Shown here piece by piece: positions 3,363 to 59,860 of a stretch of 64,000 bases of DNA; position 1 is the first letter of the stretch; each line of letters opens with the position of its first letter. The notes beneath the pieces are model-generated. The model was not told the origin of the DNA. It worked only from the letters and a program-made list of their open reading frames with translations, and did not search any database. Location: NCBI GenBank assembly GCA_947184155.2, contig CAMXCT020001123.1, positions 62,001 to 126,000 of the forward strand. The letters are read 5' to 3'. This DNA comes from Cladocopium goreaui (lineage: Eukaryota; Sar; Dinophyceae; Suessiales; Symbiodiniaceae). The position numbers and the translations under genes are program-made.

Positions 3363-4689
3363 AAAAAATGACAAATATATGACATGTTGGGTCAAGTTGA
3401 AGGCTCTTGGCATTCCAAGTGGGTCACGATGGATCACGGTGGATCTGTGGTTTCAACAGGGTTTGAACATCTGACAGTCTGACAACTGACCCAGTCATCT
3501 GATGTTATCCGTGCCTTGGGCGTAGTAGTTGCTGCAGACAATCCCTTGATCTTGATGACGAAAGGATCAGCCTCTGACAGGGTGCTGTATTGCGGCTTCC
3601 TGCAAATATGGACTTTGATGGTTATATAATGATATATGATGTATGAGATATAATGTATAATTGTTTTCCATAAAATTGTCACGACTGGTGGTATCCAGTA
3701 TTTTCAGACAGACCGACAGACCCGTAATAGTTTGATTGTTTTTAGTGCTGAAAGTTAAGTTACTATTGTGGCTAACTGGGTGTGCTTCCACAACTGTTCC
3801 ACATTGTTCCACGTAGCAAATATTGGACGTATTTAGGTAGTAAGTGCTATCTCTCTGTCTCTGGTCCCACAAGGGTTCTGTGACTGAATCATGTTTGTGT
3901 TATAGCTACTGTACCAACTTGGGCGCTCAAAAATAGGATCTATTTTGAGTGGTTGACTGTTCAAAATAATCAGCATCTTCACAAATCTCCAGACATGTCA
4001 ACCTACTCGTGGGTTGCTATAGATCTCAAATTGCCCCATTGTGTGCTCGTTGTGGTCGGTTTATGTTGTTCATGCCGCCATTTTTCATCAATATTTGATG
4101 GTTGTACACTGTTACCCTGGGGTAAACTAACATGAAACATAGTTTCCCGTTAAAGAAAAAAAACTCTAAAAGGTGGATTCCGCATATCTATACTCTCTGG
4201 GGCAAGTGCAAATTTTGGGGCTGATTAACACAGACCCTGCCAAATGAGGTTGGAAAACTACATTCCTCAAAATAGTACCGATTCTCAGAGTCAAACTGTT
4301 AGCTGGCAAAATCTCAATTAGTGCGGGTGAAATTCCGCTGAAAACCACTGAAAACCAGTCATAACTAGTAATACCTAGTAATAATCACTCTATTAACTAC
4401 CATCTAAACTAATCGCTAGCATCAATGACTGCATTAATCACTATTATTAACTAATTAATCCCTCTTGATCACTCCTGTCTCAAACACCATATTCACAACC
4501 AATGGAAAATGTCTGGAAATTGTCATCCTTAGTTCGATGATTTTCCCAGCTATAAACCTCCGTGTAGTTCGGGTATGTTCATATGGTTTTCCCGAAAAAA
4601 AAAACCAAGGGTTTCCAGGTTTCCCATGGATTTCCCCATGGATTTCCCATATTTTTCCCTATATTTCCCCAGGATTTTCCTACGATTCT

Positions 4690-13404: not shown

Positions 13405-16400
13405 GTCAGAAAGCTGCTTTGGGCATCCCCACGCCACATGTGCCCAATCTGTCGGCCAATGCCCGCAAACCACGGGTTCCAGCCGCAGATTGAATGGACC
13501 TTAGGCCGTGACCGAAGGAATCCGAAGGAGACAAAAGGCCCGGAAGGCCCGAAGGCCCGAAGGCTTGCGACTTTGCCCAAGGACTGAAAGAGATTGTGGG
13601 GGATTTGCATTATTTCGCTGCGATACCATCTTGATCATCTTGTACCCTTCAAAAAGGACCAAGAGAAACACATGTTGTTTCATCTTGTTGTTTCTTCAGT
13701 TGGTAATTTCGCAAAAAAATATATATCCATATATCCTGCAGGCAGGTGTCAAGAAGTTTTGCCCCCATGCACATCCAATCTCCCCGGGACATTTCTTGCC
13801 CCTACGGAGTCACTGCCCAGCAGCAATGGGACGTCCACTGCTATTCAACGCCTCTGCCATCCGACCTTGATGGGAAGCTGGTACACCATTGGGGTTGAAA
13901 TCTCCATTACCAAAAAAGGCGCTGGCTCATGGCTTTGGCTTTGCCACACTGCCACACTCTCCATCTCTCTCTGTATGTATATATTTATATTCATCTATTT
14001 TTATTGATCTATATATTACATGTATATAATTATATATATATACACATGATCACATATGTATAAAAGGTCCTCAGAATCCTGGAAGTTTCCACCGTCAGAA
14101 ACCGCCCATGTTTGGAGCGAGGCACGGTATTTCTCCACCGTCTTCTTCTTCCCCTCGTCGTCGCATTTTCCCGACTCAGGGTAGCCGACCTTGCTGTGGA
14201 AAATTGATGGATTTCCCCAGGAAAATGATCTGGAAATGGTTGATTTTCCACATCCTTGTTAGTTTACCCTAGGGTAATAATTAAAAATGTGCTTCAAAAT
14301 GGATCGAAATGGTCTCAAAATTGAATATGTGTGTATGTATATATATATTAAATACCCTGCCATGAAATTGGTGGTCTGGGCTCTTGAGCTTCCCATCTCG
14401 CCCAATTCAGAACATACTTCATGTATTTGTCACTCTGTGGTGTACTATATTGATACTCCCTCTCTCTCTCTATTTTATACACACAATAAGATACATGATA
14501 TGTATATATATATATATATTACATACTAGCATAAGTTAATATAACACAGTAACATACAGTAACAATTTACCAGCTACGGTGAGGCTCTCGGCCGGTCCCT
14601 CTACCGCATCAGCATTGCTTCGCCACGGGGCCATGATGTCACCACCTGAATGGCTCAAAGTTGTCTGAAACGACTAGGGGTTCTGACGAAAATCCCCAAT
14701 TTAAAACATAGAATATAGAAGTTGGTAAAATCATCTAAAATCCAATCCTAAACCAGTGACAAATCACATTTAATATAATATATATATATATACATATATA
14801 ATATTATATTATATATATATATTATTATATATTATATTATATATATTATATTATATATATATATACAAATATTGTTCTATCTTTTTGGTGATCCATATGT
14901 GATGTATGACATTGTATGACTTTCCCCACAAGCGTCATCTTCCTGGGCCAGTAAACATCAGCCATAGTAGGTATAGAATTTCTGCCAAATTACACCAGGA
15001 CTAGTATTGAAACATATTGAAACCCATGGTTTTGGGGATCCCCCCATTTTTCATGAACCCCCATATACAAAAGGGCTTAAAGTCCAAGCATCAATCTGGA
15101 TCAACACAGCCATCGTTCTTCACGAAATCCACATCCCAGGAGGCAAACAGCCTTGCCAGGCAGATACATCAGGCAATGATCTTTCCATAAGGTTAAGAAT
15201 CCCACCCCTTTGTGGAATCTTATGAATCCTCACTAAAATCATCAAACCCTTCATATAAGATTAAGACTTTCCATTTGTGGCAAAGACTGGAACACCCTTG
15301 ATTTATTTTTAAACTCTTGTCTAGTTGTTTTGCTAGTGATTTCAAACAGCTGTTTTTTTAGTGGTTCGGTCACCAATTTGAATGGGGTTGGTGCTCACCT
15401 GCTAAAAAATAAATTTGATCCTCTCTCAGAGTTTCCCACGTTTCCAAGTCTTAAATAGAAGAAAACCTTCAAACATCCTTAATAATCTTAATAAATCCAT
15501 CAAACATATTCACACATCATCAACACAAAGAAAATTATGTGAATCCCTCAAAAATCCTGAATCCCCTCCATAAATCCACAATAAATCTCCTTGCAACACA
15601 GTCAACACAGTGATTCGCCTTCCATCTTGAGCTTCAAAACCCAAGGAGGCTGGGCGGCTGGCGCAAGTCTTGAGGCCTGGCGGAGTCATTTTCAGCAGTG
15701 GATTTTACCCATGGGTAAACAGTATAACTGGTGATTGTCCCATGAGTATAACATAATATAACTGTGGCTAGTACCATCATACAGTATAACTGTGTATCTA
15801 TAACTAGTGATTTTCCACTGGTTAGATTATCAGAGGGACGGTTCCTCCAAACGCTACCCTGGTTTCTTTGGGGCCAAATTGATGTTTTCGGTTTAACCCA
15901 AAGTGGCCGCAGGACTTGGATTCGGCTCCCAGTTTGGCTTGGACAAAGCCATGTCAATCTGCTGCCTCTGTCGGTGTAAATGCCATACTTGAAGCCCAAT
16001 TTGTGCAGGTAATCGCCCAGGGATTTCATTCCTGCGTCCAAGGGACCAAGGGATGCGTTTCATGTGTGAGGCAGCTGGCTTTGAGCATACCCAATCTGAG
16101 ATACCTGGTTTATTTAGTTGATTTATTTACATTTATTTATTTATTTATCATATACTTATATACTTTATATTCCTGCAATAAAGGTTGACTGGGCAACCCC
16201 TATAGCCAAAACCTCCCCGTTCCATGCCCGGTGAAGGCCTGAAGGAAAGGCTCTTTCATCCTCTTCCAGCTGGCCAGAATCCTCAGCATGGCCCCTGGTA
16301 GTGCAACAGCGGCTTTCTTGTTGGTGGTTGACCCTCCCCTCTGAAAAATATGAAAGTCAGTTGGGATTTTTATCCCCAACATATGGAAAAATAAAGAAAA

Positions 16401-39264: not shown

Positions 39265-42200
39265 CCCGCGGGCTGACTGCGGAGTAACAAGGCTGTCTGC
39301 TGACGCTTGAACCTTTGTTCCATCTCTATCAGAGCATCAGCGATGTCACCTAAATCATTCCAGCGACGTTTTGTGGGAGCCTACAAAAGCAAAAGAACTG
39401 TTATGGGGTGTTCTTCAAATCGAGGGTATAGACTAAACCACGTGGTTTCAGTACTAAAATAATCCAAACTTGGATGATTTGAAGGTATTCCTACTTTCAG
39501 AAGCTACCAAGACCATGGGTAGAAGCAACATGCCCAACAAGAACAAGAGAATGATGCCGAGAGTATTGTCACGACAGCCAAGTGCAGCTGGCAACCTGCG
39601 AACAAAACTAGCAGGTCATGGCAAAATCATGGCACACGGTGAATCCTGCAACTGCTTGGTGTGCAGGATAGGGCTACAGTATGTTGAAAGACTCAAGTGG
39701 CTTCCAAGCGATGACTTCTTCTAAGAACCCTGTGCACTCCAATATGCATCCACATTGCCAGTTCTCAGTTGCCAGTTGATTTACCACTTCACCACAAAAT
39801 GTCACAAACTATCCGCATCAAGTTGGTTTACCTCAATATCCGCATAGATTTGCGTTGCCGGTGCCAAGCTGCTGTGCCCACGCGTCTCTGCATAGTACTT
39901 GGTGCTCTTGGAGAGCTCGTTGCCGCCCCCAAGTCTCAGGAGGGCAACTGAGAACCATTCGCGGGGAACCCAAAACACACAAATACACACACGCATGTAT
40001 AATAATAATAATAATAATTTTATTTATTATTATTATTAATATATATATATATATAACGTATGTATGTATATACTATTATATACAGATATATATATATATA
40101 ATTATTAAATATATGACACACACATGGCCATTAAATTATCGGAGTTAGATCCCAGCTTGTGAGGGGCTGTCTATAGGGCTATGATATGTTATAACCCGAT
40201 GGATCCACGGCAGGAAACGCCATGAGCGTCTCCACGCACTTGTTGTTGCCGCGCCGTGCCGCTTCGTGCAACGAGGGATGCCCCGAGAAGTTCTTCACCT
40301 GCGACGATGGGCCTTCTTGGTGCTGCATCCCACGGAGGGTTAGGACCATACCAGGTATTACAACCCAGTCCCAGTATTTTTATGGGATAATATACATATA
40401 ATATATTCTATTATGTTACATTACTTACATTATATTATATTATTACTATATTACATGTGTTTCATATTATAACACATATATATATATCATATTATATTGT
40501 ATTTTTATATTATATCAAATAATATTATATCATATTACATATATATATACATTTATAAAAACATATTATATATCATATTATATCATGTTATATTATACGT
40601 ATAAAATTGTTATATGTGATTTATATGTGTATATAATTGTATTAATATGGGTTATGAAGCACTTCCCAACTGGGATTCGCACATCCAAGTTGTCCCTTGG
40701 ACGAAGTATGAAAACAAGGGTCATCCACTGATTTACCCTCTGGTAATGACTAACATAGCTATTGAAAATGGCCATTTATAGTGGATTTTCCCATGAAAAA
40801 TTGTGATTTTCCATAGTTATGTTAAATTACCAGAGGGTAATTTCACTGGGAGTTTCTCACCCCGCCCATCCCAGCAGTTTTTGAATCACCTTGACTCTAC
40901 CCAGGCAATTCATCCAAACTTCCTTCCCAACGAAAAAATGAGAAATCAAATGTTGACGACACAAGCTATATACCCTCTGGTTATTTAACATAGTCATGGA
41001 AAATTACCATTTTTAACAGGTAAACTATAAATGGGCTATTTTCCATGGCTATGTTAAATAACCACAGGGTAATTAAAATGATGACAATAAATGAAATAAT
41101 TCACATAGCACTTGTGGTGACTTTCCCCACCCCTCTAGCCTTGACTAAGTCTGGCAGTTTCTTGGCCAACGTCTTCACGCAGTTCTCTTGTCCAAAGCGC
41201 GCAGCCAAGTGCATAGCCGTGTGACCATCCATACCTCCCGTTGGAAACATCGGTGATGTTCGGGCTGTTGCCATGGAACATGGTCCACCTATAGATGATT
41301 TCCCTGTCAAAGGTGATGTTCAATCAATATGTTCAATCAATATGTCATATTACCTAATTAAACGTATTGATGATGTTCAAAGGTGAACATTCAAAATGGT
41401 AATCAATATGTTCAATCAAATTACCAAAGGGTATTCCAAAACAAAACCCCTCATGATCAATCCACACTTTGGGATCCTGCCTAGGGATGCCGGAAATGTG
41501 TTTGACGCCGCTGGTCATGGTGTTCTTATTCAAATAGATCTCTCTCTCTCTCTCTTAATGAATAATGATGTGTAGTCATTACCAACAAGAACATGTCCAA
41601 AAATAGGGTTGCCTAAAGATCCACTACTAGAAAAATCATTTTCCCCAATGACATTTGCTATTTGGGCATATGCACCCCGGTAGTTTCACAAAGCTATATA
41701 TTGAAAATTGCTCTTTATAGAGCAGACTTACCTATTAAAAATGATGATTTTCCACAGCTATGCTACGTTCGTTGAGGGTACCTGTTCAACCACAGCCGCT
41801 CCCCCGGGCACTTTGCGTCGTCATGAGCTTTTTGGCCATGTGCGTTCGAAGCCTTGGCTTCCCCTTAAAAACGTGGGCCAGATATTCCAGGTACCTACCA
41901 GGACACTGCCGAAGGATTTAGTATGGGAAACTATATATACAGTATATACCCTCTGGTAATGACTAACATAGCTATTGAAAATGACCATAGAAATAGTGGA
42001 TTTTCCCATTAAAAATTGTGATTTTCCATAGTTATGTTAGTTTACCAGAGGGTAACTTATGGATGTTACACCAATTTTAGCAATGACAGCCCCCCATTTT
42101 GTTCGAGAGTTTTTCCGGACAACATGGTGATTTTTTCCACTTCGGCCTCACCTAAGCTAACATAGCTTATAGATGGCCCATTTTGTTCGTTGATTTACCT

Positions 42201-44818
42201 ATTGAACATGGTGATTTTCCAGAGCTATGTTAGTTTACCACTTGAAGGGTATATCATCCCATATATATATATATATAGGTTGCTTGGGGGTTCTGGGGGG
42301 GGCGCTGAGCATATATATAATATATATATATACATATAATGTTGAATCACCATGTGTAGTATTTCTTAGTGGTTCAATCAACATTTCCCATTATATCCTG
42401 GACCCCTGGGCCTCCCAGCAAGATATTCAAACACTTTCGGTGGCCGTTGACGCTGGCCAAGTGCAAGGCCGTTCGCCCAGTGTTCGTCACGGCGCCGATG
42501 AACCTGGAGCAGTTGAGGGCTTTCCATGGTAAAACCACGGGCTGCAAATCGTATGTGGTGAAGCATGGTCTATCTTCGTAAGATTCATGGAAAAGTGTAG
42601 CTAAATTCATCATCAATGGTTCTTAAATCGACATTAATATTAATAAGGGGAACAATCAACAATAATAATACTGCTAGTATTATGTATTATTAATATATGT
42701 AAATCGTATACTGCATATCTTTCAACAATTGGGGTTGTGTAGTTCTGGAAAATGTCCCATGCAATGCCTAGATGCAGGCAGCTGAGTCCCAGCGCCATGC
42801 CGGAGAAGGTATCCACATTGTCAGGTTCCCCGGTTGATTGGCTACCCTCTGGTGAACTAACATAGCAATGGAAAATCACCATTTTTCATGGGAAAATCCA
42901 CTATTTCTATGGCCATTTTCCATTGCTATGTTAGTTCACCAGAGGGTACCCTGTATTGTGCAAAAACTATTTCTAGTGGATGTTCCCATCTTTCTGCATC
43001 TATTTTTGCAAATGGATTCTAAATGATTCGAGGCTGAGACCCAAGATGTTCCACGAAAACGGCCACAACTTATGGCGAAATATCCCATTTTCTTCAGATA
43101 CAGCGGGCATAATCGCATAACCATTTTCGGCCAAACACTCTGGCGCTTGGCTTGCAGCCGACATCAGTAGGCGGCAGCACTCGGCCTAGCGGCATTCCGG
43201 CTGGCTAATTATTCCAGTTGGAAAGATTGTAACCATGATGTTTTCCAACGATATCTGACATGTTTTAAGTGTAAATGCTATCAAACATATCTTTGGCACG
43301 CTTGCCAACCACATCAGTCGACATCTTTCTGGAATGATTCCCACTCCAACAACTCGGCCATTCCGTGGCCATTTCATGGCCATTTCTTCAACGGTACCAA
43401 GGCACATGGCCATTGTGAGCTGCATAGTGCAGGGCCGTCCAGCCGATCTTGTAGCTCTTGGCGCTCAGGAGCTCCAGTAGGACCTGGACAAAAGAGAAAG
43501 GATTGTCATAGTCATGGGGAAAATGGCCAATAGTGGTTAATAATGGTTGGGAATGGTTAGGAATGGTTAAATAAATTTAAATTTAAATAATTAATGGAAT
43601 ATTAATGGTCAACAACGGTTGACATGGGAAAGGATGGTCAATTGCCCATCTCACCCTCCCTTGGTGTTCTGCCGGAGCAGCCTCTCTTGGCGTCTGCCGC
43701 ATTCCCAGCAATTCCTCAAGGGAGGCGTGATGTCCTGCCAAGGATGACATCGCTGGTCAAAATGAACCAATGATAAACAATGACTTGGGAGACATGCCAA
43801 AATTGTTCCAACCAAAACCTGTCAGTGTAAGCTAAGTGGACAAGTCCTTCCATGTTGTGGCAGCCTTCCAAAGTTCTGTAGTTGGTCAATGTCAATGGCA
43901 TCGGTTGAATTGCATTCCTACATGATCATTGTTTTTTTTGTTGTCCGAATGAATCACAATTCTTGCAAAGGCAGTAAGGCGGCCCTGGATACTCAGCGGT
44001 TTGAAAGGATATGGGAGCTGGAAGGCAAACATATCAAATCGGCAAAAACACAACAAGACTGAGAACCAACAATCCTCAACAAAGGATACAAGATGAGGAA
44101 TTCGATGTGTCGGCAGACAAACTCTCAGAGTTGGTCTGAGTTGTTTTTTCCAGGAAACGACTAATCTTGAGATGATAACCCCTATGTCAGATCATCATCC
44201 CAAATATGGTCATAAAAAATAGTTGAAACCACCAAGCATGCAGTAGCCCCTCCATGTCTAATTAAGTTACGTAGTTTATAAATCCCATTAAACCCCATTA
44301 AACCCTAATGAATCCCATGAAATCCCATGAAACCCGATTAAACCACATTAAACCACATTAAACCACAATAGTTCGAGTTTGCCCCGGGCCCCGTCCTTCC
44401 GCAGCAGCGCAGTGGATGGCTGTCTGACCTCGGAAGTCCCAAGTTGACCTACTCAATCTGCATATAAATATATCATCATATATCATCATATGTCTATACA
44501 GTTCTGTAATCCTATAAAACTATATATATATATATTTATATATATCCTTATTTCAACGTACACATATTCTCTATGCACAGCTCCCTGAGTTATCAGCGGA
44601 AAAACATATTCCTACCGGTTCCCGCCTGCACGATCCTTCTCAGCCATCACCTCCGGCATGACCCGAAGCAACTCCTTGATGCAGTAGGCCCTGAGCCGGG
44701 CATCGGTTGAAGTAAGTGGTAGCTATCAATGGCCGTTGGATCAGCAGCATCATCATGATGAATCGTAATCATAATCATCATCGTCATCGACGTCGTCATC
44801 GTCATCGACGTCATCATC

Positions 44819-44856
<38 letters not shown>

Positions 44857-44857
44857 G

Positions 44858-44889
<32 letters not shown>

Positions 44890-45510
44890 TGATAGCAAAT
44901 CACTAATTTATTATGACAACTACTAAGCCACCAATTCCCCGTGCCTCCCGTACCATGCGGCTTCGTGCAAGGCGGTCTGGCCGCGCTTGCCACGATACCT
45001 GGGAAAGTTTGAGAACTAACGACACCCACAACTTCTGTGATAATGAAGATTTATGATAATTATCATAATCAGTCATAATCTACATATGAATACACATACA
45101 TACATATATATATATTAGTACAATAAATAATTTGTTGTTTGTTTATTGGTTTATTGAGTAATGACAACGATAGTTGATGGGATCCAAGGCATGACGATGG
45201 ACTCAAACCGCAACGACAAGCTGCGATGGATCCGCCCCCTTCTCCAGCAAGCGATCCAGATCCGACTTCCGGTCATCCTCGCGCGGCCAGTCCCCACATA
45301 TGACATGGGATTGAAAATGGCCATATCATCCAAGAGGAAAATCACAGAATTAAACTCTTCCACACTCATCCAAAGTCCATGTTTGGGGCTGCGGGCTCCA
45401 GAAAAAAAATGGGACGTGTAAGCTACCAATGAAGTTTGCATCATAGGGCTGTCTCCAAGGTGACTGTCCTTGATGGCCAGATGCAACGCTTCACCCAAGT
45501 CGACCCGGAC
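39265..45510 (-). CDS. Ankyrin-repeat protein, about 15 exons
   Basis: Minus-strand exons, mostly one repeat or half repeat each: about 45510-45445 (GEALHLAIKD), 45290-45225 (LDRLLEKGADPS), 44998-44940 (GQTALHEAAWYGRH), 44715-44630, 44455-44385 (RGQTAIHCAAAEG), 43740-43650 (ends GGAGG|GTGAGATGG), 43490-43385 (GWTALHYAAHNGH), 43190-43100, 42848-42745 (GMALGLSCLHLGIAW), 42520-42410 (GRTALHLASVNGHRKCLNIL), 41880-41782, 41245-41110 (DGHTAMHLAARFGQENCVKT), 40310-40205 (HPSLHEAARRGNNKCVE), 39945-39835 (ends GAG|GTAAAC) and 39383-39266 (DIADALIEMEQRFKRQ; donor GTGGGT). Ankyrin repeats mediate protein binding; no catalytic domain was seen, and both ends are open. Exon positions are approximate. The introns host several palindromic TA-flanked elements. 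Confidence 0.72.
39470..39724 (+). CDS. Small plus-strand open frame, doubtful
   Basis: 84 codons with a basic, non-repetitive product (contains KLAGHGKIMAHGESCNCLVC) lying between two exons of the ankyrin gene on the opposite strand. It has a CxC/C cluster but no recognisable domain. It could be an independent small gene, a processed fragment or chance. Confidence 0.2.
   Translation: MDDLKVFLLSEATKTMGRSNMPNKNKRMMPRVLSRQPSAAGNLRTKLAGHGKIMAHGESCNCLVCRIGLQYVERLKWLPSDDFF
40733..40841. mobile_element. Palindromic TA-flanked element (TACCCTCTGG family), copy
   Basis: About 108 bp beginning TTACCCTCTGGTAAT and ending ATTACCAGAGGGTAA, with inner arms around ATAGCTAT and GATTTTCC. Both ends are flanked by TA. 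Lies in the intron between ankyrin exons near 41.1 and 40.3 kb. Confidence 0.85.
40971..41072. mobile_element. Palindromic TA-flanked element (TACCCTCTGG family), copy
   Basis: About 101 bp from TACCCTCTGGTTATTTAACA to TGTTAAATAACCACAGGGTA, the same family as the 40733 copy and in the same ankyrin intron, 130 bp away. Confidence 0.8.
41673..41780 (-). mobile_element. Degenerate palindromic element supplying a splice donor
   Basis: Read on minus the element starts TACCCTCAACGAACGTAGCA and continues TGGAAAATCATCATTTTTAA, matching the family. Its first TA is the second and third base of the GTA at the end of an ankyrin exon (GAACAG|GTACCC), so the inferred donor lies exactly on the element edge. 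The far end (CCCCGGTAGTTTCACAAAGC on plus) is diverged. Confidence 0.6.
41947..42054. mobile_element. Palindromic TA-flanked element (TACCCTCTGG family), best copy
   Basis: 108 bp from TACCCTCTGGTAATGACTAA to TTAGTTTACCAGAGGGTA. The arms pair over roughly 35 bp (CTAACATAGCTATTGAAAAT against ATTTTCCATAGTTATGTTAG) around a short loop. No open frame; TA on both sides. A more diverged relative follows at about 42141-42252. Both lie in one ankyrin intron. Confidence 0.85.
42843..42948 (-). mobile_element. Palindromic element supplying a splice acceptor
   Basis: 106 bp, nearly perfect palindrome from TACCCTCTGGTGAACTAACA to TGTTAGTTCACCAGAGGGTA. On minus its right end reads CACCAGAG|GGTAGCC, and the frame of the following ankyrin exon (GSQSTGEPDNVDTFSG) is open and in phase from that AG. 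The inferred acceptor is therefore inside the element's inverted repeat. Confidence 0.75.
44754..44885. repeat. (ATC)n trinucleotide tract in ankyrin intron
   Basis: About 130 bp of CAT/ATC units with CGTCGT interruptions. Together with 19921-19965 and 32561-32805 it is the third GAT/ATC tract in the window. Confidence 0.9.
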
Positions 45511-45514
45511 CTAG

Positions 45515-48400
45515 GAGAAGGACCCAACGTACGGGAGGCTTCGGTGAAGGTCTGGCCGGATATCGTTGGCAGTTCCACATGATTCTCTGTAGGTTGTGTA
45601 CAGAAACCATTCTGATTCATGGTATCATATGGTATCATATGGTATCCTAGATTTCGCAATGCCGACAGTTGTCGTCGCTCTTGGGAATGACGTCCACCAT
45701 GTCACCTCCAAGCAAAGGATGATGCAAATCCAACATCTATTGAGCACGTTGTGGAATGTGGTAGATGCTTTATGGATATCATCCCTCTTAAAATGATGGA
45801 CAATCGGTGGCCATGTCAGCATTGGAGGGTCAAAGGAAGGGGTGATCAGAAGCAACATGATTACCCCTTTGAAGGGGCCTGGAAAGGGTTGGTAAGGAGG
45901 TCAAAGTTTCGAGTACTTTGGGATCTTTGGGGCGAACCAACAGCCTGTAACCTGCTGATTCAAGACTGGAGACAAGCTGGACGTTCTCAGTTGCATGGTC
46001 AACTAAAAATCAGTTACAGCACACCTCAGCATACAATATCATAGAACAAATTGATATAAATGCGTTCACACAGCACCGGGTTATCTATCCTGTGGTTGGG
46101 AAACTCTTACGTACTAGTAGCTCCTTGCTCTCCAATGAATAGGTACTGCAGTCTGGATGCAATTTATACGTAGTTAAGTTATACTGAATCATGAATTACC
46201 TAGTTTCGCTTCACCCATTTGCCTTGGCTGCGGGTTTACCGCTCTGACCACTGCCTACTTTGAGCCATGGCTGCGATTTCGGAACGATGGGGCGCCCGGG
46301 TCCCTGTTTCCGGAACTGGGAAAATCGAGGTTCTAGAGTGAGAAGCTCAAACATCATCAGAATATAATATATATATATATATGTTCATTGATTGAAAGCC
46401 CATGAAGGATTATGTTCGGCTGGTCAAACACCTATCATCGTTCCCAGTTGTAGCAGTTCTGTATCTAGAATAAATTCCCATCTGGTGAAGCCTTTCCGCC
46501 TGGGATTGCATCGACATTAATCCAACCAATATTTGGTCACTTAAATTGCGCACGGACTGTCGGACTGTCGGATTAATCCATCCCATCATTTCCCGATCAA
46601 ACAGTTGGTTAACCCACCAATGGATTCACCCAAGTACTACTGTAATTATCAACCATATCCCATTATATAATGTTCTTGCTTTGGCCGAACTTTCTAGGCT
46701 ACAAATCACCCGTTATATCCCTTATTCAGTGCTTATAAATCACCTGTCTTTGTTGATCAAATCAGCTGTTCAGTCACTCATTTTCCTGGAAAAAAAGAAG
46801 TTGGATTCACTATTGAATTGTCCTGGAAAGAGTTTGCTTCCTGAGTTGGATGTGCATCCCACTTAGGATCCCTGGTTTATAATCCATATGGAGGTTAAAT
46901 GGGGCTACCCCCAGTCATAATCCATTTCATTTTGGCATTTTCCATGAAAGAAACCATCCAGCTATTGGGGATCCCCGACCCGGAGCCTGCTGCAAGGTCA
47001 CAGGCTGCGGCCTCGCCTGGTTTTTGTTTGCAAAATTTTCAGGGGGTACCCTCTGGATGTTTTTTTGAAGGGTGATGATTAATGGATGCTAATGGATTTT
47101 CAAGTGAGACATGTGTTTTGATAAATGGATTTTTAATTTCATGGATTCCAATGGATTCTAATAGACTTGAAGGGTTCATATGCTGAAATGACATTCAGTT
47201 GAACATGAGAATCACGAATGATAAGAATGGAACATCACCACATATCACCACCAAACTAGTATAAATTAAATGATGATGGTGCCATCCATAAACGCTCCGC
47301 TACTTTGGGAGCTTTAAAACATTTAAAACCCAATCCTAGCCATCCAGCGACGTCGCGACGCTACGTGAGGTCAGGTCGCTATAATTCATCCAGGTCTGTT
47401 GGAAAATCACAAAATAGGCAGATCTTTATCCCAGAAGTGTACCAGAAATAGGTGACACTATGGTGAATAGCGAATTCACCACAATTGGAGGATTATGGCA
47501 TTGGGTTCGCCACATTAATTATGCAAATTAAGGAGTCAGAACAGGGTAGAATTAGGACGCCTCGAATACATGAGGGGAAATTCTTTGGATTTGACGTTGC
47601 TGCATGTGCATTGGATGTTGGCAATAAAATAACATTTGAAACAAGGGGGTTAATTGTTGAAAAATGTTTGAAAGTGGAGACTTCGACATGTAATTGGGAT
47701 TATGACCGTTATGACTTATGAGGGGTTAGAACGTGGAGTACTTAGATTTATAATGATTTATAGACGTCTACGACTTCGGGTTGCACTGGGTTTGTGAACA
47801 GGCAAAGCGGCATCACAATTATTGACTTATGTTGGTTTGAGAATTCTACATGAAAGCATGGTCGTGCCATCAAAAACTAGCCAAATTGGATGGGGATGTG
47901 CTGTAGGATTTTCCATCGAACACATAGCATGGTCATGCAATCATTGGGAACACATTTGACGAGCATGTAACCTATAGGCTAATGCACATGTTTCCTATTT
48001 GCTTTTACCTCTCATACTTCAGCATCGTGGGTATTTAAATCCTGTTTAAGATGTATCACTGTATTATCACTGGAACTACTAGATGTTCATTCCCTAATAG
48101 TTGGTTATGAAATGTTATGAACATATTGTCAATTGCTCGGGTGTTTTGTGGCACATCACCCCTGGAACGATCTCTTGGAGCAAGACTGGATTCACCCCAT
48201 GGCTATTTAAGGGTGGAATCCCAGCAGTTAATCCACCAGCGTTTCTCGGAAAATCACCATATGCCATAAACCAATGCCATAAACCACCCCCAATATTTCA
48301 AACATCATCACTATCACTAGCAAATCACATGTTGTTCATTCCATTCAATGATGTTCTTCCCCAGTAATAAATGGAAGGTAAACATCATCCCCAAACAAAC
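45515..48400. other. No gene recognised
   Basis: Mostly AT-rich. A short plus-strand frame from an ATG at 46267 (MAAISERWGARVPVSGTGKI, then GAG|GTTCTA) has coding-like composition but no partner. The open frame at 47485-47721 has AT-rich codons and no motif and is probably chance. A TA run lies at about 46362-46382. Confidence 0.4.
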
Positions 48401-48409
48401 CATTGCTTC

Positions 48410-50149
48410 ATTCGCTAGGCCGACCAGTCCCAAGACTCCAAGGCACGGAGCCAAAGGAGGAGAAAAACCGTGAGCTCCGAGAGGTTGATACATTCACCTG
48501 GGAACTCTTGGATGACTTGGGATGACTTGGATGGGGCCATGGGCTCCACACACATGGTGGATTCTCTCTGTCCGATAAAAAGGAGCCACACATGGTGACA
48601 TGGTGCATATCGAGCTAGAACTTTTCAGATAATGGCGATATCCACTGATTCTTGTAATGGATCGGAGTAACACGTGATGTAATGATGTGGGTGATATAAC
48701 CCGATGGTTATACAGTACCCTAGCCTTGGTTTGCAAATATATGGCGGGTACTTTCTGGGAATCTCCCGTGGCAATGTCAAAATGCCTATTTCTTGGATGA
48801 TCCAGAAATTCATCTGAAAATGAAGAACTTTGCTTGCCATGCTGGATTACCAAAGGGTGGTACCTCAGGTCTTCATCCACTAATATCCCAGTAGCTAGGG
48901 GTTCTATCATGTTACATCACTTATCAGTATATTTCCTAGCTGCAAATATGAAGGTCGGGATCATCATCTCAGGATGGCAAGATAGGAAAATATGAATGGA
49001 CAACGAAATCACCTAAAAAATCCTATCATTGGATGATAACCATTGGATAATAGGAAAATATGGATGGTTATCCTCCAATGATTTAATCCCCGTGGTCATT
49101 CCTCCAATGATTTAACCCGTCATGGCTGAACCCCACGTAGATTTCCATGCTTCCAGGGTGCCAGCTTCACGATCTTGGCCCAGCTGAGAGGAAAATTTCC
49201 CCCAGAACCTCAGGCTATTCGCAAGCAGTTTCAGGGTAGGTGGGTATTCTGATGTGTGTCATTTTTTGTTTGCAGATTTCTCCAAATTTCTCCAGTCGTA
49301 TTGGCAGTGCACTTACAAACACTTTTCAGCCATGCCGACATAGGGTTGAGAAAAATATCAAGTCTCAAAATCTCTAAAACATGTGGAGGCCAAAATCGTC
49401 TTGGATATTCTTGGCAACAATGCGTAGATTGCGGAAAACCATGATGATGATATTCCAGCAAAGACTGGTGGGTGGGGCCCCGCAAACCTCATCTAATCAT
49501 GGGAATAACAAGAGCTTCCCCTACCCCAAAGGTCCAAAGGTGATACCTCCACTGCGGTGTTAACCAGCAACAAACGATCTTCCCAGGCCGAGGGGCTTTG
49601 GCACCTTGGATCTCAACTGCAGGGACTGAACCTTCCAGCACTGGCAGGTGGATCTTCACCCCCCAAAATGTGGAAATGATCTCAATATCATCCAGGAAAC
49701 TGACATATCGAAAAATCACCATGCGTAAATCATGTTCCAAACGGGAAAGAACCATGGATTCCATATCAAGGGTTACAGTTTACCGGGGGACGGGATAGCC
49801 CCAATAAGGATTGATGATGGCTTTGTACGAAGCACCACCAGTACAGTACCAGCGCAGTACCAGTCGCATCAACATCACAAGGTGCATAATATTGCATATA
49901 ATTTCACTCTTGAAACATTCCTGACACTATATACACATACGCATACACACAAATATATATATATATAATATATATCTCTCACTCTATCTCTATCTATTTT
50001 GTCTTAATATAACTACTGTATATGATATAATTTCACCATATGGGTGTGTCTGGAAATGGCCTATGTAAACCATTTAGTCGGACAATCGATCCGACGGCCT
50101 CCGCATAGAGCGTCGCCATGGGAAGCTCCTGGCCTCCAGCGGCCTGCAT
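48410..50149 (-). CDS. Unidentified minus-strand gene, 5' exons
   Basis: A likely first exon runs 50149-50071: ATG, MQAAGGQELPMATLYAEAVG, 79 bases, donor AATG|GTTTAC. Further minus islands: about 49715-49570 (contains VKIHLPVLEGSVPAVEIQGA), 49442-49375 (MVFRNLRIVAKNIQDDFGLH), 49200-49140 (FPLSWAKIVKLAPWKHG) and 48500-48420 (ECINLSELTVFLLLWLRALE). They lie upstream of the ankyrin gene on the same strand and could be its N-terminal part or a separate gene. No domain is recognised and phases are unresolved. Confidence 0.35.
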
Positions 50150-50189
50150 CGTGCAGCGGGCTAGTAGCGTTTATATTATACACACACAA

Positions 50190-50225
<36 letters not shown>

Positions 50226-50639
50226 GTGTAATTATAGATATATTTATATATATATATACTGTGACAGATGTATATATTATATATATTACTGATATATGTA
50301 TACTGTAAATATATGTAAATATATATATATATGTATGTATATTACTGGCATATGTAAAATCGAAGGAAGTTTCGAAGTCAAACTTCCGACAATATGGACA
50401 GATGGAAAAGCAGAGGTGGGAAGAGTCAAAGAGGAGAAGAGCCGAATAGAGAGAAGATCAGAGAAGAGAAAGAGTGAGAAGAAAGAAGATGCAGGCGCGC
50501 GAAAAGGTAGAAGAGTCGCGATTCACGTTTTTTTCCAATGATTTGTGGCTCCGGAGGGTCAAAAAGTAGGCTCGCCAAAGCTGCGGGTGCGGAGTTATGT
50601 GGTCAGATGAGAGATGAAAAGTTGCACGCCGTTGTGGCG

Positions 50640-50935
50640 CGAAGCATATTTCCAAGTCCAAATGTCGAACGCACACCAACATCGGACCACTTTTGGAAGC
50701 TGAGATGTCGAAAAAGTGCTAAGCACATGTCCAGGTCAAAATGTAGAAAACACACCACGCTCGGACCACTTTTGGAAGTTGACATGTCGAAAAAGTGCAC
50801 TCCCTTGTGGCACGAAGCACATTAGCACTTTTGGAAGTTGACACGTCGAAAAAATGGCGCGAAGCAGCTTTCCGAGTCAAAATGTTAAACACACTACATG
50901 CTCGGACCACTTTTGAAGGTTTAGATGTGTTGGCG
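50640..50935. repeat. About 80-bp tandem repeat (CGGACCACTTTTGGAAG)
   Basis: Four imperfect units marked by the GGACCACTTTTGGAAG and ATGTCGAAAAAGTG blocks, with anchors near 50682, 50761, 50820 (truncated) and 50902. First block of a 5-kb cluster of unrelated tandem repeats. Confidence 0.8.
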
Positions 50936-51024
50936 TGGCAGGCGCAAGGTATTCTACACCTTGCCAAAAGTGAGGGAAAAAAAAGTGAGGGTTTTGTAGC
51001 AATTTCAGCTACAACCACAAGTAT

Positions 51025-51640
51025 ACTACACTACACCTAAACCTACAACTACAACTACACTACATCACACTACACTACACTACACTACACTGCACTACAC
51101 TACACTGCACTAATTACATTACACTACACTACACTACACATCACTACACGACACTCCACTCCACTCCACCACACTGCACGAACTACAACCACTGCACTCC
51201 ACTTCACTACACTACACTCAATTGCACTACACCACAACTACAACCACAACTGCAACTACAACAGCCACAACAACTACAACTACACTACATTACACTACAC
51301 TACACTAATTGCATTGCACCACACTAACTACATTACATTACACTACACTACACTACACTAACTACAACTACAACGACAACGGCAACTACAACTACACTAC
51401 ATTACACTACGCTACACTCCACTACACGACACTGCGCCACAACACACCGCACCACACTACAATACACTAGGCTAGACTAGACTATCTAGACTAGACTACA
51501 CTACAGCACACTACACTACATTACATTGCGCTACATTCATTACACCACACCACAACTACAACTGCAACTGCACCACACTAATTACACTTCACTACAGCTA
51601 CAACTCCACTCCACTACATTACAACTACAACTACAGCTGC
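51025..51640. repeat. (CTACA)n pentanucleotide satellite
   Basis: About 600 bp dominated by ACTAC/ACTACA units with interspersed CAACTACAAC and CCACAC variants. Long open frames through it are a by-product of the period. Confidence 0.9.
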
Positions 51641-51840
51641 GCCTGCATCCAGCAGTTGTGGGTGAGGTGACCACTGCAACCATGGCAACCACTCCAAAAA
51701 ACACAACTCCAACCACCTTTCGGTCCATTAGTGGATTTGCTCTGCCATCCGTCATTCGCAACAACCAACCTCTCCTATCGGTTTCCTGTTTTTGAAACTT
51801 CCGCCACCGCCTTGTGTGGTCATTTAGAATTGTGAGGCTT

Positions 51841-52200
51841 GACCTTGATGAAGGGTGGTGTGAGTGGCTACATCACATAACAATACATCACAAAAGAATT
51901 GACCTTGATGAAGGGCGGTGTGAGACTTTACATCAAATAACAATACATCACAAAAGAATTGACCTTGATGAAGGGCGGTGTGAGACTTTACATCAAATAA
52001 CAATACATCACAAAAGAATTGACCTTGATGAAGGGCGGTGTGAGACTTTACATCAAATAACAATACATCACAAAAGAATTGACCTTGATGAAGGGCGGTG
52101 TGAGACTTTACATCAAATAACAATACATCACAAAAGAATTGACCTTGATGAAGGGCGGTGTGTGACTTTACACTACATAACAATACATCACAAAAGAAAT
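51841..52200. repeat. 60-bp tandem repeat, six units
   Basis: Units start at 51841, 51901, 51961, 52021, 52081 and 52141 with GACCTTGATGAAGGG; the middle four are identical and the outer two diverged. Both strands stay open because 60 is a multiple of three: plus gives a 20-residue unit containing IDLDEGRCETLHQITIHHKR, minus a unit containing ALHQGQFFCDVLL. Translation is not supported by any other evidence. Confidence 0.95.
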
Positions 52201-52203
52201 GAC

Positions 52204-52865
52204 CTGCATGAACGTTGCATGGGGCTTGTGTTGGGGAGGAAGCCGGAGCACGAAACCTTGTGTTTTTCCGTGTCAAGTGGCTGCAGCCGATGATGAAAGG
52301 TACCTCCTGTGTGCGGCGGTTGCGGCTGTGGTCGGTTTGCCTTTCTTTTTGCCGCATTGTAAGGGTGGCTTCAAGCTGCTTTGGGTGTGCTTCCGCGTGC
52401 GTAGTTATAGGGTGCTGTGGAATCTGTGGTTGCAGATCGCATTGGAATGGCTGCATGATTGTTGTCATCTGGCGTTGCCATGTGCGTAGATACGTGCAGG
52501 TTTGCGACGTGATGCTGCAAAACGCATTGTAATGGCTGCATGAATGTTGCATGGGGTTTGTGTTGGGGAGGAAGCCGGAGCACGAAACCTTGTGTTTTTC
52601 CGTGTCAAGTGGCTGCAGCCGATGATGAAAGGTACCTCCGTGCGGCGGTTGCGGCTGCGGTCGGTTTGCCTTTTTTTTTTGCCGCATTGTAAGGGTGGCT
52701 TCAAGCTGCTTTGGGTGTGCTTGTGCGTGCGTAGTTATAGGGTGCTGTGGAATCTGTGGTTGCAGATCTTATTGGAATGGCTGCAGGATTGTTGTCATCT
52801 GGTGTTGCCATGTGCGTAGATATGTGCAGGTTTGCGACGTGATGCTGCAACACGCATTGTAATGG
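52204..52865. repeat. About 330-bp tandem duplication
   Basis: Two consecutive copies (52204-52535 and 52536-52865) beginning CTGCATGAA(C/T)GTTGCATGGG, about 95% alike by eye, with a small deletion near 52638 and a T-run expansion near 52671. A third copy starts at 52866 and soon decays. Confidence 0.85.
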
Positions 52866-53099
52866 CTGTGTCAAGGTTGCTTGGCACCGCGGCTGCATGC
52901 GTAATACTATTCTCTTTTGCAGCTGGACATCGTAAATAGTGATGGAGTGGCTGCATCAAGGCTGCGACAGTGATTTGTCAGCAGATTTTCTCAATTTTGG
53001 CGCTAGTAATTTTCCTTATAAAATCATTTGAAAAGTACTTCAAAATCGTCTTTTTTCGCTTTCGCGTCGAGATCCGGTTTTGGAGCTGCGATTTTTGTT

Positions 53100-53615
53100 G
53101 TGATTATGTACAAGAAAGCTTCTCTGTGTAAAAACTTCTTCCTGTAAAAGCTTGCTGTGTGTAAAAGCTTCTCTGTATGTAAGTGTTCTGTGTGTAAACG
53201 CTTGCTGTGTGTGAAAGCTTGCTGTGAGTAAAAGCTTCTCTGTGTAAAAGCTTGTTGCGTGTAAAAGCTTCTGTGTGTAAAAGCTTCCCTGTTTAAAAAG
53301 CTTGCTGTGTGTAAAAGCTTCAACTGTCAAAGAACTTGCTGCGTGTAAAAGCTTTCTTTGTACACGCTTTGTATCACAAAGTAGTACTGGGAAGTGCTTC
53401 GCGCAAGCTTCGTAGTACAAAGTAGTATATACTAGGAAGTAGTTTGTGCAAGCTTTGTAGTTCAAAGTAGTACTGGGACGTGCTTTGTGCAAGTCTTGTA
53501 GTACAAAGTAGTACTGGGAAGTAGTTTGTGCAAACTTTGTAGGTAGTACAAAGTAGTGCTGCGAAATGCTTTGTGCAAGCTTTGTAGTACAAAGTAGTGC
53601 TGGGAAGTGCTATCA
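53100..53615. repeat. Two adjoining tandem repeats (18-bp AAAGCTT unit; about 50-bp AAGTAGTACTGGG unit)
   Basis: To about 53360 a GTGTGTAAAAGCTTGCT-like unit of 16-18 bp repeats about fourteen times, rich in HindIII-type AAGCTT. From there a 46-57-bp unit (GTGCAAGCTTTGTAGTACAA, then GTACTGGGAAGT) repeats about five times. Stray single copies of the second unit occur near 54470 and 54975. Confidence 0.85.
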
Positions 53616-54115
53616 GACCTTGCGACTTCTTTCGGTTTGCAATCGGTTTCGAATTGCTGGATCTTCATGCGCTCAGCAACGTGAGCGCTGGTTCGACAGC
53701 TACGAATGCTGTTGTGCTGCAGAGCGCTAACCTTAGAAACTTGCTGCAACGCAAAGTCGAAGAGGAGGGAAATTTGGAGTCGCAAAACTTGATGATTGAC
53801 ATTGGCTTCGAAGAAATGGCATATCTCAAGCACAGTTTGAAGATTGCATTGCATGTCTACGATGCGTTGCAAAATTCACGGTGCTTCGCGTGCAGACGAA
53901 GTATCCCAACCGAGGAGCGCAGGAATATCGGCTTGGGTTACTTCAAATATGGACCCTGCGCTCTTTGTAACTGTTCGCACGGAACAGGACGATACGCTGC
54001 GGCTTGCCGAGCAGGTGCAGAATGTCGTTTGTCGCAAGCAGATGCAGCTTGGGTCCGCAATGTCATTGCGGATAGTGAAAACTGTTTGCCTGATTTGCTT
54101 CGTGAAGTGCCATGA
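53597..54115 (+). CDS. Possible plus-strand coding region, unidentified
   Basis: A 172-codon open frame whose first residues overlap the preceding repeat. From about 53660 the sequence is non-repetitive and GC-balanced, with a product containing NLRNLLQRKVEEEGNLESQN and a Cys-rich end. A second plus frame is open over 53844-54152, so the reading is uncertain. No family is recognised. Confidence 0.25.
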   Translation: MLGSAIRPCDFFRFAIGFELLDLHALSNVSAGSTATNAVVLQSANLRNLLQRKVEEEGNLESQNLMIDIGFEEMAYLKHSLKIALHVYDALQNSRCFACRRSIPTEERRNIGLGYFKYGPCALCNCSHGTGRYAAACRAGAECRLSQADAAWVRNVIADSENCLPDLLREVP

Positions 54116-54626
54116 CGGGCAACCAGGCTGCCAACAAGTGTTTGCGGATTAAGCTGTCCAGCCTTTCGTGCCAATGCGGGCCGAAAGAGCTGCCAAAACC
54201 TAGACCAAGTGCAGCGCGGAAAAACAATGCAGCTGTTGACCTTGGACCGCGTGAGTCTGATTGACAGATAACAACTACACCATGTTTACAATAAGTTGTC
54301 TTGATGAAAGGTGGCTCAGGTGTACAGTATACCACAAGCTTCACCTAACCGGGGTGTACAATATAGAAAGCGTGTGCGCAGAAGATTCTGTTTGTTAGCA
54401 TTTTTTTGGGCATACATAAGAATTGAGATGAGTTACGAAGAGGTGAGATGAGGTGAAAAGTGTTTCTTCAAGTACTACTGGGGAGTACTCTGTGCAAGCT
54501 GTGTAAAGTGCATCTGCGTCTCAAGCTTTCTGACGTGCAGAAAAACCGAGATGAGTTGAGACTAGCTCCGGTGAGATGAGAAAGTTTGAGATGCGCTCGG
54601 ATGACATGAAAATAGCCAAGAAGAAC

Positions 54627-54733
54627 TTACCCTCTGGTAAATTAACATAGACCCTGAAAATGACCAATTTATAGTGGAAACTAGTCTTCCAACCCCTATC
54701 TGGCAGGGTCTATGTTAATTTACTGGAGGGTAT
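54627..54733. mobile_element. Palindromic TA-flanked element, outlying copy
   Basis: About 105 bp from TTACCCTCTGGTAAATTAAC to GTTAATTTACTGGAGGGTA, the same family as the ankyrin-intron copies. It lies in the satellite cluster about 12 kb from the nearest of them, so the family is dispersed and not a local duplication. Confidence 0.8.
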
Positions 54734-54779: not shown

Positions 54780-55400
54780 GATGAGTTGAGATGAAGTGCA
54801 AGTGTGCAGTGTGGAGTGTGGGGTGTGAAGGGGAAGTGTGAGGACAGTGTTTGCTTCACGTTGCATTGCACCGGGATCGCGCGCGGGTCATGTTCTTGGA
54901 CAGCAGCACTGCAAAAGCTTCGCACAAAGCACGCACGCATGGGCCTGGCTGGCGCACGGCGCCTGCAAGTTCCTTCGTAGTAGTACTGGGAAGTGGTTCA
55001 TGAAAGCGTAGATGACATATGAGAAGAGATGAGAAGAGATGAGCTGGGATAAGGTGAGAAGAGCTCAGATGAGATGAAGTGTGGAGTGTGGAGAGTGCAG
55101 TGTGAAGTGTGGGGCGTGAAGAGTGCAGTGTGAAGTGTGGAGTGTGAAGTGTGAAGTGTGGAGTGTGAAGGAAGCAGTGAGAAGTGAGAAGTGTGAAGTG
55201 TGGACTGTGAAGTGTGAAGTGTGAAGTGTGGAGTGTGAAGAAAGCAGTGAGAAGTGAGAAGTGTGGAGTCTTAAGAGTGCAGTGTGAAGTGAAGTGTGGA
55301 GTGCGAAGCGTGCAGTGTGAAGTGTGAAGTGGGGAGTGTGAAGTGTGTAGTGTGGAGTGTGAAGACCGCAATGAGAAGTGTGAAGTGCGAAGTGGAGCTT
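54780..55400. repeat. GTGTGAAGTG-type satellite
   Basis: About 600 bp (interrupted at 54860-55075) of a short degenerate unit mixing GTGTGAAGTG and GTGTGGAGTG. The interruption at 54870-55000 contains GCACGCACGCATGGGC, which recurs at 55440-55460 (GCACGCACGCACGGGC), so a larger block was duplicated around the satellite. Confidence 0.85.
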
Positions 55401-55479
55401 CAAATGTGACATGTGAAACAAGACACCACTTTCGCAGAGTGCACGCACGCACGGGCTTGGCTGGCGCACGGCGCATCCA

Positions 55480-59465: not shown

Positions 59466-59860
59466 GGTAGGAAATCAACTTCTCGCCCTCTGGCAATCAA
59501 ACATGGCTGGCGGGGAAACCCACTACAAATTGGCATTTCAACATCTATTTCAATGGGAAAATCATCTACATATGGGGGCACATGTGATCATGTGTTTCCA
59601 AGTCGGCGGCATTTCATACCTCACAGTGCCGATCCCTGATCCAACACATCAAAATTTCCCGACACAGCGCCACATTCTGGCAGGACAGGGCCCAGGGGTG
59701 TTCTCACGAGCGGTGGCTTTAAGAAAGTATGAAACCAACTCCCGCACCCTGACTGTACAAAAAAAAGATGTGTTTCGCAGAACTACCCTTTACATCGCTT
59801 TACAAGTCTGCGAGGTATCAAATTATTCCATTGCAACATGCTGCAACAAAGTGCAACTCC

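Follow-up and report, generated by a model that had tools for sequence, protein, structure and literature searches.

A TA-bounded palindrome in the introns of a dinoflagellate ankyrin gene is best read as an abundant MITE-type transposon and not as an introner

The window, a 64-kb stretch of dinoflagellate DNA, carries on its minus strand a gene in which four ankyrin exon segments were recognized: 43337..43483 (Ank_4, E 2.2e-4; the match contains a TGA), upstream of an element copy at 42843; 42362..42490 (Ank, E 3.9e-5; the match runs over a TGA at its end), upstream of an intron with three copies; 41137..41244 (Ank, E 1.3e-4), between that intron and one with two copies; and 40194..40301 (Ank, E 0.017, below the Pfam cut-off), on the downstream side of the two-copy intron. 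Apart from an identical duplicate at +40,719 bp, the genome has no close paralogue of the gene in which presence and absence of the element could be compared. A reading of 42643-42885 as an exon ending in the element lacked Pfam support and was set aside, not disproved.

Copies of the element were located in the window by BLAST with five named copies and with a nucleotide profile of 33 complete copies. Both searches recovered all five clear copies of the initial annotation, within 1-2 bases of where it had placed them: 40734..40839 (minus strand, complete, 106 bp; profile E 1e-27), in an intron of the ankyrin gene; 40971..41071 (plus, complete, 101 bp; E 1.1e-21), a member of the TTATTTAAC subfamily in the same intron; 41947..42054 (minus, complete, 108 bp; E 8.6e-27); 42843..42948 (plus, complete; E 1.2e-29), of a young GAACTAAC subfamily with near-identical copies on many contigs; and 54628..54732 (plus, complete; E 1.2e-13), of a diverged subfamily. 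The decayed copies that it had also proposed are present at 14176..14276 (plus; E 1.1e-6), 41677..41779 (minus; E 1.4e-11) and 42153..42249 (minus; E 7.9e-14) by both searches, and as fragments (4112-4133 and 4224-4266 within 4112..4266, minus) by BLAST only, being absent from the profile list at E<=1e-3. The profile search added weaker matches, two of them partial (41270..41338, minus, E 2e-5; 59486..59575, plus, E 4.9e-5) and one marginal (48752..48858, minus, E 6.8e-4). The clear copies belong to one family as had been claimed, except that 54628 is of another subfamily and by BLAST has mainly the outer arms in common with the rest. Location in the ankyrin gene holds for the six clear or decayed copies between 40734 and 42948 and for the weak match at 41270, but 54628 lies outside the gene. 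Ankyrin and kinesin introns hold one to three copies together with other sequence, and single introns with several copies occur in the ankyrin gene and at kinesin locus L063.

The copies are ~101-108 bp long, near-palindromic and TA-edged with ends TACCCTCTGG...CCAGAGGGTA, which agrees with the initial description, and the element has no coding capacity. Arm complementarity is 93% (42840-42882/42909-42951) and 86% (40971-41013/41029-41071) in the two copies that appear among the inverted repeats of the window. With a core pattern that did not require TA, TA was found at both edges of 46 of the 49 two-ended copies, a count that is partly biased as the pattern used to collect some of the loci itself contained TA. 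None of the 49 carries a direct repeat of four or more bases beyond the TA, and in five the three bases beyond it are identical on both sides (~0.9 expected). Within one copy the two arms resemble each other only a little more closely than arms taken from different copies do (0.787 vs 0.766); the palindrome is therefore not maintained in strict step.

Genome-wide (1.17 Gb), the 19-base end motif TACCCTCTGGTN{2,6}TAACATAG has 54,383 exact matches, nearly equally divided between orientations (27,084 and 27,299), and the pattern read backwards has none; chance origin is therefore excluded. The density of strict ends is 93.8 per Mb in the window and 46.7 genome-wide, as compared with 59.2 in 30 kinesin loci (six ends, with some loci overlapping) and 0 in four PCP loci, numbers too small to decide on enrichment near genes. 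No matches were found in viral contigs or in contigs of prokaryote genomes. When a 2.2-kb piece of the window was compared with the genome (best 40 of 3249 candidates scored), 96 matches were among those listed, nearly all to element copies and on many contigs. Exact 29-base ends of one young subfamily number 2,160 genome-wide, and 18 of its copies, picked for similarity as the best matches to the window copy, are 1-6 positions off their consensus, all of these positions being central and none in the outer arms; the flanks of each copy are unrelated.

The sites of insertion are AT-rich, with GC dropping from 0.457 to 0.355 on approaching the element and with A at position -3 in 82 of 169 ends (P=1.3e-8), a target preference. 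The base preceding the TA varies (44 A, 31 C, 29 G and 65 T; n=169). PIF/Harbinger elements follow a 3-bp TWA rule and piggyBac elements a 4-bp TTAA rule; a MITE of PIF/Harbinger (Tourist) or piggyBac type was rejected, as the mixed bases fit neither duplication. A search of the sampled loci with 117 joined flanks gave nine rows, of which only one, a paralogous stretch in locus L005 (83% identity), was judged a true empty site: the insertion is evident there, with three extra bases left and no clean 2-base duplication. The other rows were judged self-matches of partial hits, and a tandem-repeat neighbour of 54628 was discarded because just ~11 matched bases, too few, lie left of the junction.

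Inverted arms, TA edges, dispersed copy number, near-identity of the young subfamily at unrelated sites and AT-rich surroundings are the observed basis for reading the element as a MITE. Short, non-coding and with terminal inverted repeats, it occurs in tens of thousands of dispersed copies, many near-identical, and the initial proposal that the TA-flanked palindrome is a non-autonomous DNA transposon was supported on these grounds. The most probable reading (probability roughly 0.87) is a palindromic MITE that inserts at TA, is non-autonomous and was active recently, and for which we infer a Tc1/mariner affiliation. Such a MITE would be a non-coding, nearly full palindrome of ~104-108 bp, TA-bounded, whose arms read TACCCTCTGGT...ACCAGAGGGTA. 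Its transposase, putatively of Tc1/mariner type, would act in trans: it would recognize both arms, which are identical, mobilize the element by moving or copying it, probably by a cut-and-paste type of movement, and join it at a TA, the presumptive target-site duplication. On this view the ankyrin-gene copies are ordinary insertions into introns longer than the element. Compared from general descriptions and not from sequences, Stowaway-type and Tc1/mariner MITEs resemble the element in TA edges, short non-coding length, inverted arms, very high copy number and preference for AT-rich non-coding DNA. However, the Stowaway end is CTCCCTCC and that of the element CCCTCTGGT; moreover, the element is nearly all palindromic, and no autonomous partner with its ends was found.

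In an alternative to this affiliation, a TA-duplicating MITE family depends for its movement on a transposase that is not of Tc1/mariner type, or on a dinoflagellate enzyme as yet undescribed. In the search of the genome for an autonomous element with these ends, none was found: there are eight DDE_3 matches, and at all eight loci, viewed for the end motif, one boundary was visible and none showed the element's ends. The one Tc1/IS630-type transposon seen (L086-L092) has DDE_3 and HTH_Tnp_Tc3_2 domains; similar to the element, it has a TA ahead of the visible boundary in three of the five copies viewed, yet it was rejected as the partner because its visible end, CTTCAGGAGG, is different (CTTCAGGAGGAA against CCCTCTGGT in the element). 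The ends CCCTCTGG match no transposase-linked end found in the genome, and in most MITEs the palindrome does not span nearly the whole element as it does here. On the other hand, Tc1/mariner-type enzymes use TA edges and A/T-rich targets, as seen here, the genome contains a Tc3-type transposase gene, and the flanks do not fit the PIF/Harbinger or piggyBac rules; a transposase of another kind is a tentative option and the less likely one.

The initial annotation had the elements acting as introners, that is, the element itself is the intron, inserts in exons and is spliced at edge sites that it carries or co-opts, thereby creating new introns. Introners with inverted repeats are known in dinoflagellates (PMC9860276, PMC11453091), and the element does lie inside introns, both in the ankyrin gene and in kinesin genes. 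It also resembles the introners of Polarella, Symbiodinium microadriaticum and Amoebophrya in its dinoflagellate host, inverted repeats, hairpin potential, non-autonomy and position within introns (PMC11453091, PMC9860276, PMC7789003). By hand count on the young-copy consensus, each arm has one motif resembling a donor (CTG|GTAA) and one resembling an acceptor (CAGAG|GG), whichever the orientation; a splice from the element's GT to its AG|G, however, would by hand count leave 11 extra bases and be out of frame.

The apparent concentration in introns calls for no particular explanation: in the annotation published for the species that fits best, 713.6 Mb are assigned to genes and 91.5 Mb to CDS, of 1.2 Gb, and since about half of the genome is thus intron, an intronic location of the copies is expected by chance. 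A first control with random intervals lacking the element's own GT and AG, which was unfair, gave an excess of exact introns (29 of 156 vs 9.3%); this excess was rejected, and the control replaced by transplants, because GT and AG are part of the element ends. In an earlier transplant control, which included gene-selected loci, 29 of 154 compared with 22.0%, and at strand level, with element termini transplanted to random TA sites, 27 of 146 compared with 18.8%. In the open-frame test of whether the element equals the intron, which places the splice sites at its ends or a few bases away, 23 of 73 elements passed as against 979 of 3000 transplants (32.6%), while the positive control of kinesin exons gave 185 of 210. 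Nor does coding exon appear to lie on both sides: exon-like GC (>=0.5 in 60 nt) was found on both sides of 2 of 73 elements, as compared with 64 of 150 kinesin-exon TA sites and 386 of 12,756 random TA sites, so that the flanks (n=73) resemble random non-coding TA sites and not exons.

Nothing was found to indicate that the element itself gives rise to introns, and the introner reading is not supported: single introns hold two or three copies plus unrelated sequence, the flanks are not exon-like and the exact-intron test does not exceed its control. In these respects the element differs from the dinoflagellate introners, its introns being longer than itself and with several copies; it also has no 4-base duplication beyond the TA, whereas S. 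microadriaticum introners have 4-bp duplications (PMC9860276). A minority of copies, at most ~20% by our own estimate from the test counts, may act as introns. A mixed behaviour, in which most copies are passengers in non-coding DNA and rare exon-hitting ones are spliced at or near their ends, producing intron growth with rare intron birth, is improbable, and introners in the full sense are more improbable still.

Least credible is a conserved structured RNA or regulatory intron hairpin instead of a mobile element: the copies folded do form strong hairpins (about -40 to -62 kcal/mol), and 4 of 37 pairs in the consensus of the 18 chosen copies are preserved by changes in both partners (two of these pairs with three pair types), but the window has no Rfam match, the copies lie at unrelated sites genome-wide in both orientations, the young subfamily is burst-like, and the pairing needs no RNA function because the arms consist of identical ends.

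On the best reading the element is an abundant palindromic transposon of the MITE kind and not an introner. If so, a single family of ~105 bp, recently expanded in a burst and present in at least tens of thousands of copies, would help to explain why introns are long in dinoflagellates of this sort; the annotation published for the best-fitting one gives 16.2 introns per gene with a mean of 839 bp. It would also caution against taking every intronic inverted repeat for an introner, and dinoflagellate surveys have called introners from inverted repeats near intron ends (PMC10666404 and PMC10522408). At kinesin locus L044 a copy lies close behind an exon, and an insertion of this type could pass for an introner in such surveys.

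The five clear copies (from 40734, 40971, 41947, 42843 and 54628) and four decayed ones (14176-14276, 41677-41779, 42153-42249 and the fragment 4112-4266) named in the initial annotation are all present in the window by BLAST and by a nucleotide profile from 33 complete copies, the clear ones 1-2 bases or less from their first placement and the fragment near 4118 detected by BLAST only. Copies are 101-108 bp long, with the 5′ end TACCCTCTGGT and the 3′ end ACCAGAGGGTA, and are self-complementary and fold back (inverted-repeat listing and folding). The profile recognised 11 places in the window versus six ends by the exact end pattern, which thus overlooks decayed copies. Clusters of five elements inside about 2 kb, resembling the ankyrin gene, were also observed at each of two other loci (L017 and L063).

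The genome searched consists of 1,165,616,438 bases in 6,202 contigs (1.2 Gb, 6,843 scaffolds and GC 44.4% are quoted in the published description of the Cladocopium goreaui assembly; PMC9412976), and GC in the window is 0.40-0.49 in 4-kb steps. The end motif TACCCTCTGGTN{2,6}TAACATAG was matched 27,084 and 27,299 times on the two strands (control, 0). On contig C2 the 94 listed end matches represent 82 elements; scaling the 54,383 genome-wide matches by 82/94 puts the number of copies with one or both ends exact at an estimated ~47,000, about 5 Mb of sequence (~0.4% of the genome). The copy at 42843 is a member of the GAACTAAC subfamily, which has 2,160 exact 29-base ends genome-wide; 18 of the subfamily's copies, chosen as those matching the window copy best and so selected for likeness, differ from the consensus at one to six positions, all central, with identical outer arms. 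Near identity of these young copies, together with mutually unrelated flanks, argues for recent spread. Along contig C2, dense blocks of elements alternate with gaps of up to 320 kb, and the variance/mean in 50-kb bins is 3.46 (maximum of 2,000 simulations, 2.0), so the spread there is uneven; spacing within two dense blocks is compatible with random. Such strong swings in density, over distances of 50 kb to 300 kb, may correspond to domains defined by chromatin or by blocks of genes.

The proposal that the palindrome is a non-autonomous DNA transposon remains the most likely account; its identical arms would be bound by a transposase encoded elsewhere, and integration would occur at TA. The TA edges were borne out: 46 of the 49 copies with two ends have TA on each side, and TA comes before the core end motif 84 times out of 85, some of these loci having been retrieved with a TA-containing pattern. 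Duplication longer than TA was not found, at least four further shared bases occurring in 0 of the 49; three were shared in five (~0.9 expected). Approaching the element, GC drops from 0.457 to 0.355 (169 ends), and A is favoured three bases outside it (82/169 ends; p 1.3e-8). One paralogous unfilled site (within locus L005; 83% identity) makes an insertion visible, yet three extra bases are retained, so that a 2-base duplication is not proven there. From TA, the target composition and the general traits of these families, we infer a Tc1/mariner affiliation.

Among the 18 chosen copies, arm differences between subfamilies compensate at 4 of 37 predicted pairs, with three pair types at two of the four. 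Arms are slightly more alike within one copy (0.787) than between copies (0.766). Symmetry is thus favoured without being strictly maintained, and repair templated by the hairpin is not required. No transposase for the element was found among the genome's DDE_3 matches, eight in all, and a DDE_3/Tc3-type transposon was rejected as its partner because the visible end differs. That multi-copy transposon (L086-L092) has the visible end CTTCAGGAGGAA and, in five loci, an ORF of 397-415 aa with DDE_3/HTH_Tnp_Tc3_2; beside it in L091 lies an ORF with a P-loop-like motif, GASASGKT, and no Pfam match.

The placement of most copies within one ankyrin gene held for six clear or decayed copies and for a weak match (41270-41338). 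The gene lies on the minus strand; its exon ORFs gave ankyrin-repeat matches individually and the hand-joined model an Ank_2 match (E 3.4e-33), individual exon ends being placed by eye and provisional. Two copies lie in the intron between 41137 and 40301, three plus the weak match in that between 42362 and 41244, and one in the stretch between 43337 and 42490. In L063, a kinesin locus, exon matches at 387-539 (E 0.001) and 1501-1620 bracket three copies, and a further, partial copy lies between 1620 and 1905. At another kinesin locus, L044, an element (1358-1471) sits close behind an exon matched from 1483; the following matched exon is ~700 bp away and 67 query residues are missing between the two, so a further exon may lie in the gap. 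L041 is arranged similarly. All these ankyrin and kinesin copies fill parts of longer introns. Separately, 41050-43250 has a 100% identical second copy at C1123:143769-145969 (offset 40,719 bp) with like exon matches; either the segment was duplicated in tandem very recently or the assembly has duplicated it.

The suggestion that the element acts as an introner was not upheld by tests on 73 unique, near-complete elements, whose loci had been picked without regard to genes. Excision at GT/GC/GA...AG no more than 12 bases from the ends, with a 120-nt open frame on each side, succeeded for 23 of 73, versus 979 of 3,000 trials with the element transplanted to TA sites chosen at random; in the positive control, transplantation into kinesin exons, 185 of 210 passed. 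Under the host AG|G rule, the figures per strand were 19/146 versus 14.0%. Exon-like GC on both flanks was found for 2 of 73 elements, versus 64 of 150 kinesin-exon TA sites and 386 of 12,756 other TA sites. Exact introns are estimated at no more than ~20% of copies, the best value being zero, and longer introns hold several copies each. Moreover, in the Cladocopium annotation of PMC9412976, 713.6 Mb of the 1.2 Gb is covered by genes and 91.5 Mb by CDS; ~52% of the genome would then be intron, and copies inside introns are expected.

The family was not recognised in the literature on dinoflagellate, Symbiodini- or Cladocopium introners, MITEs and Tc1, supplements and closed journals being outside this scope, and an earlier description is possible. 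Elsewhere in the genome, the peridinin-chlorophyll protein family gave 150 scored matches, placing the host among peridinin dinoflagellates, with genes in tandem arrays on several contigs (for example, C1913, C278, C2358 and C4249). Dense tandem arrays with differing units also occur in the window at 51012-51542, 52342-52884, 53106-53354 and 55045-55429; their units include ACACTACACT-like repeats, a 213-bp direct repeat (93% identity), 16-17-bp TGTGTAAAAGCTT and a AGTGTGAAG minisatellite.
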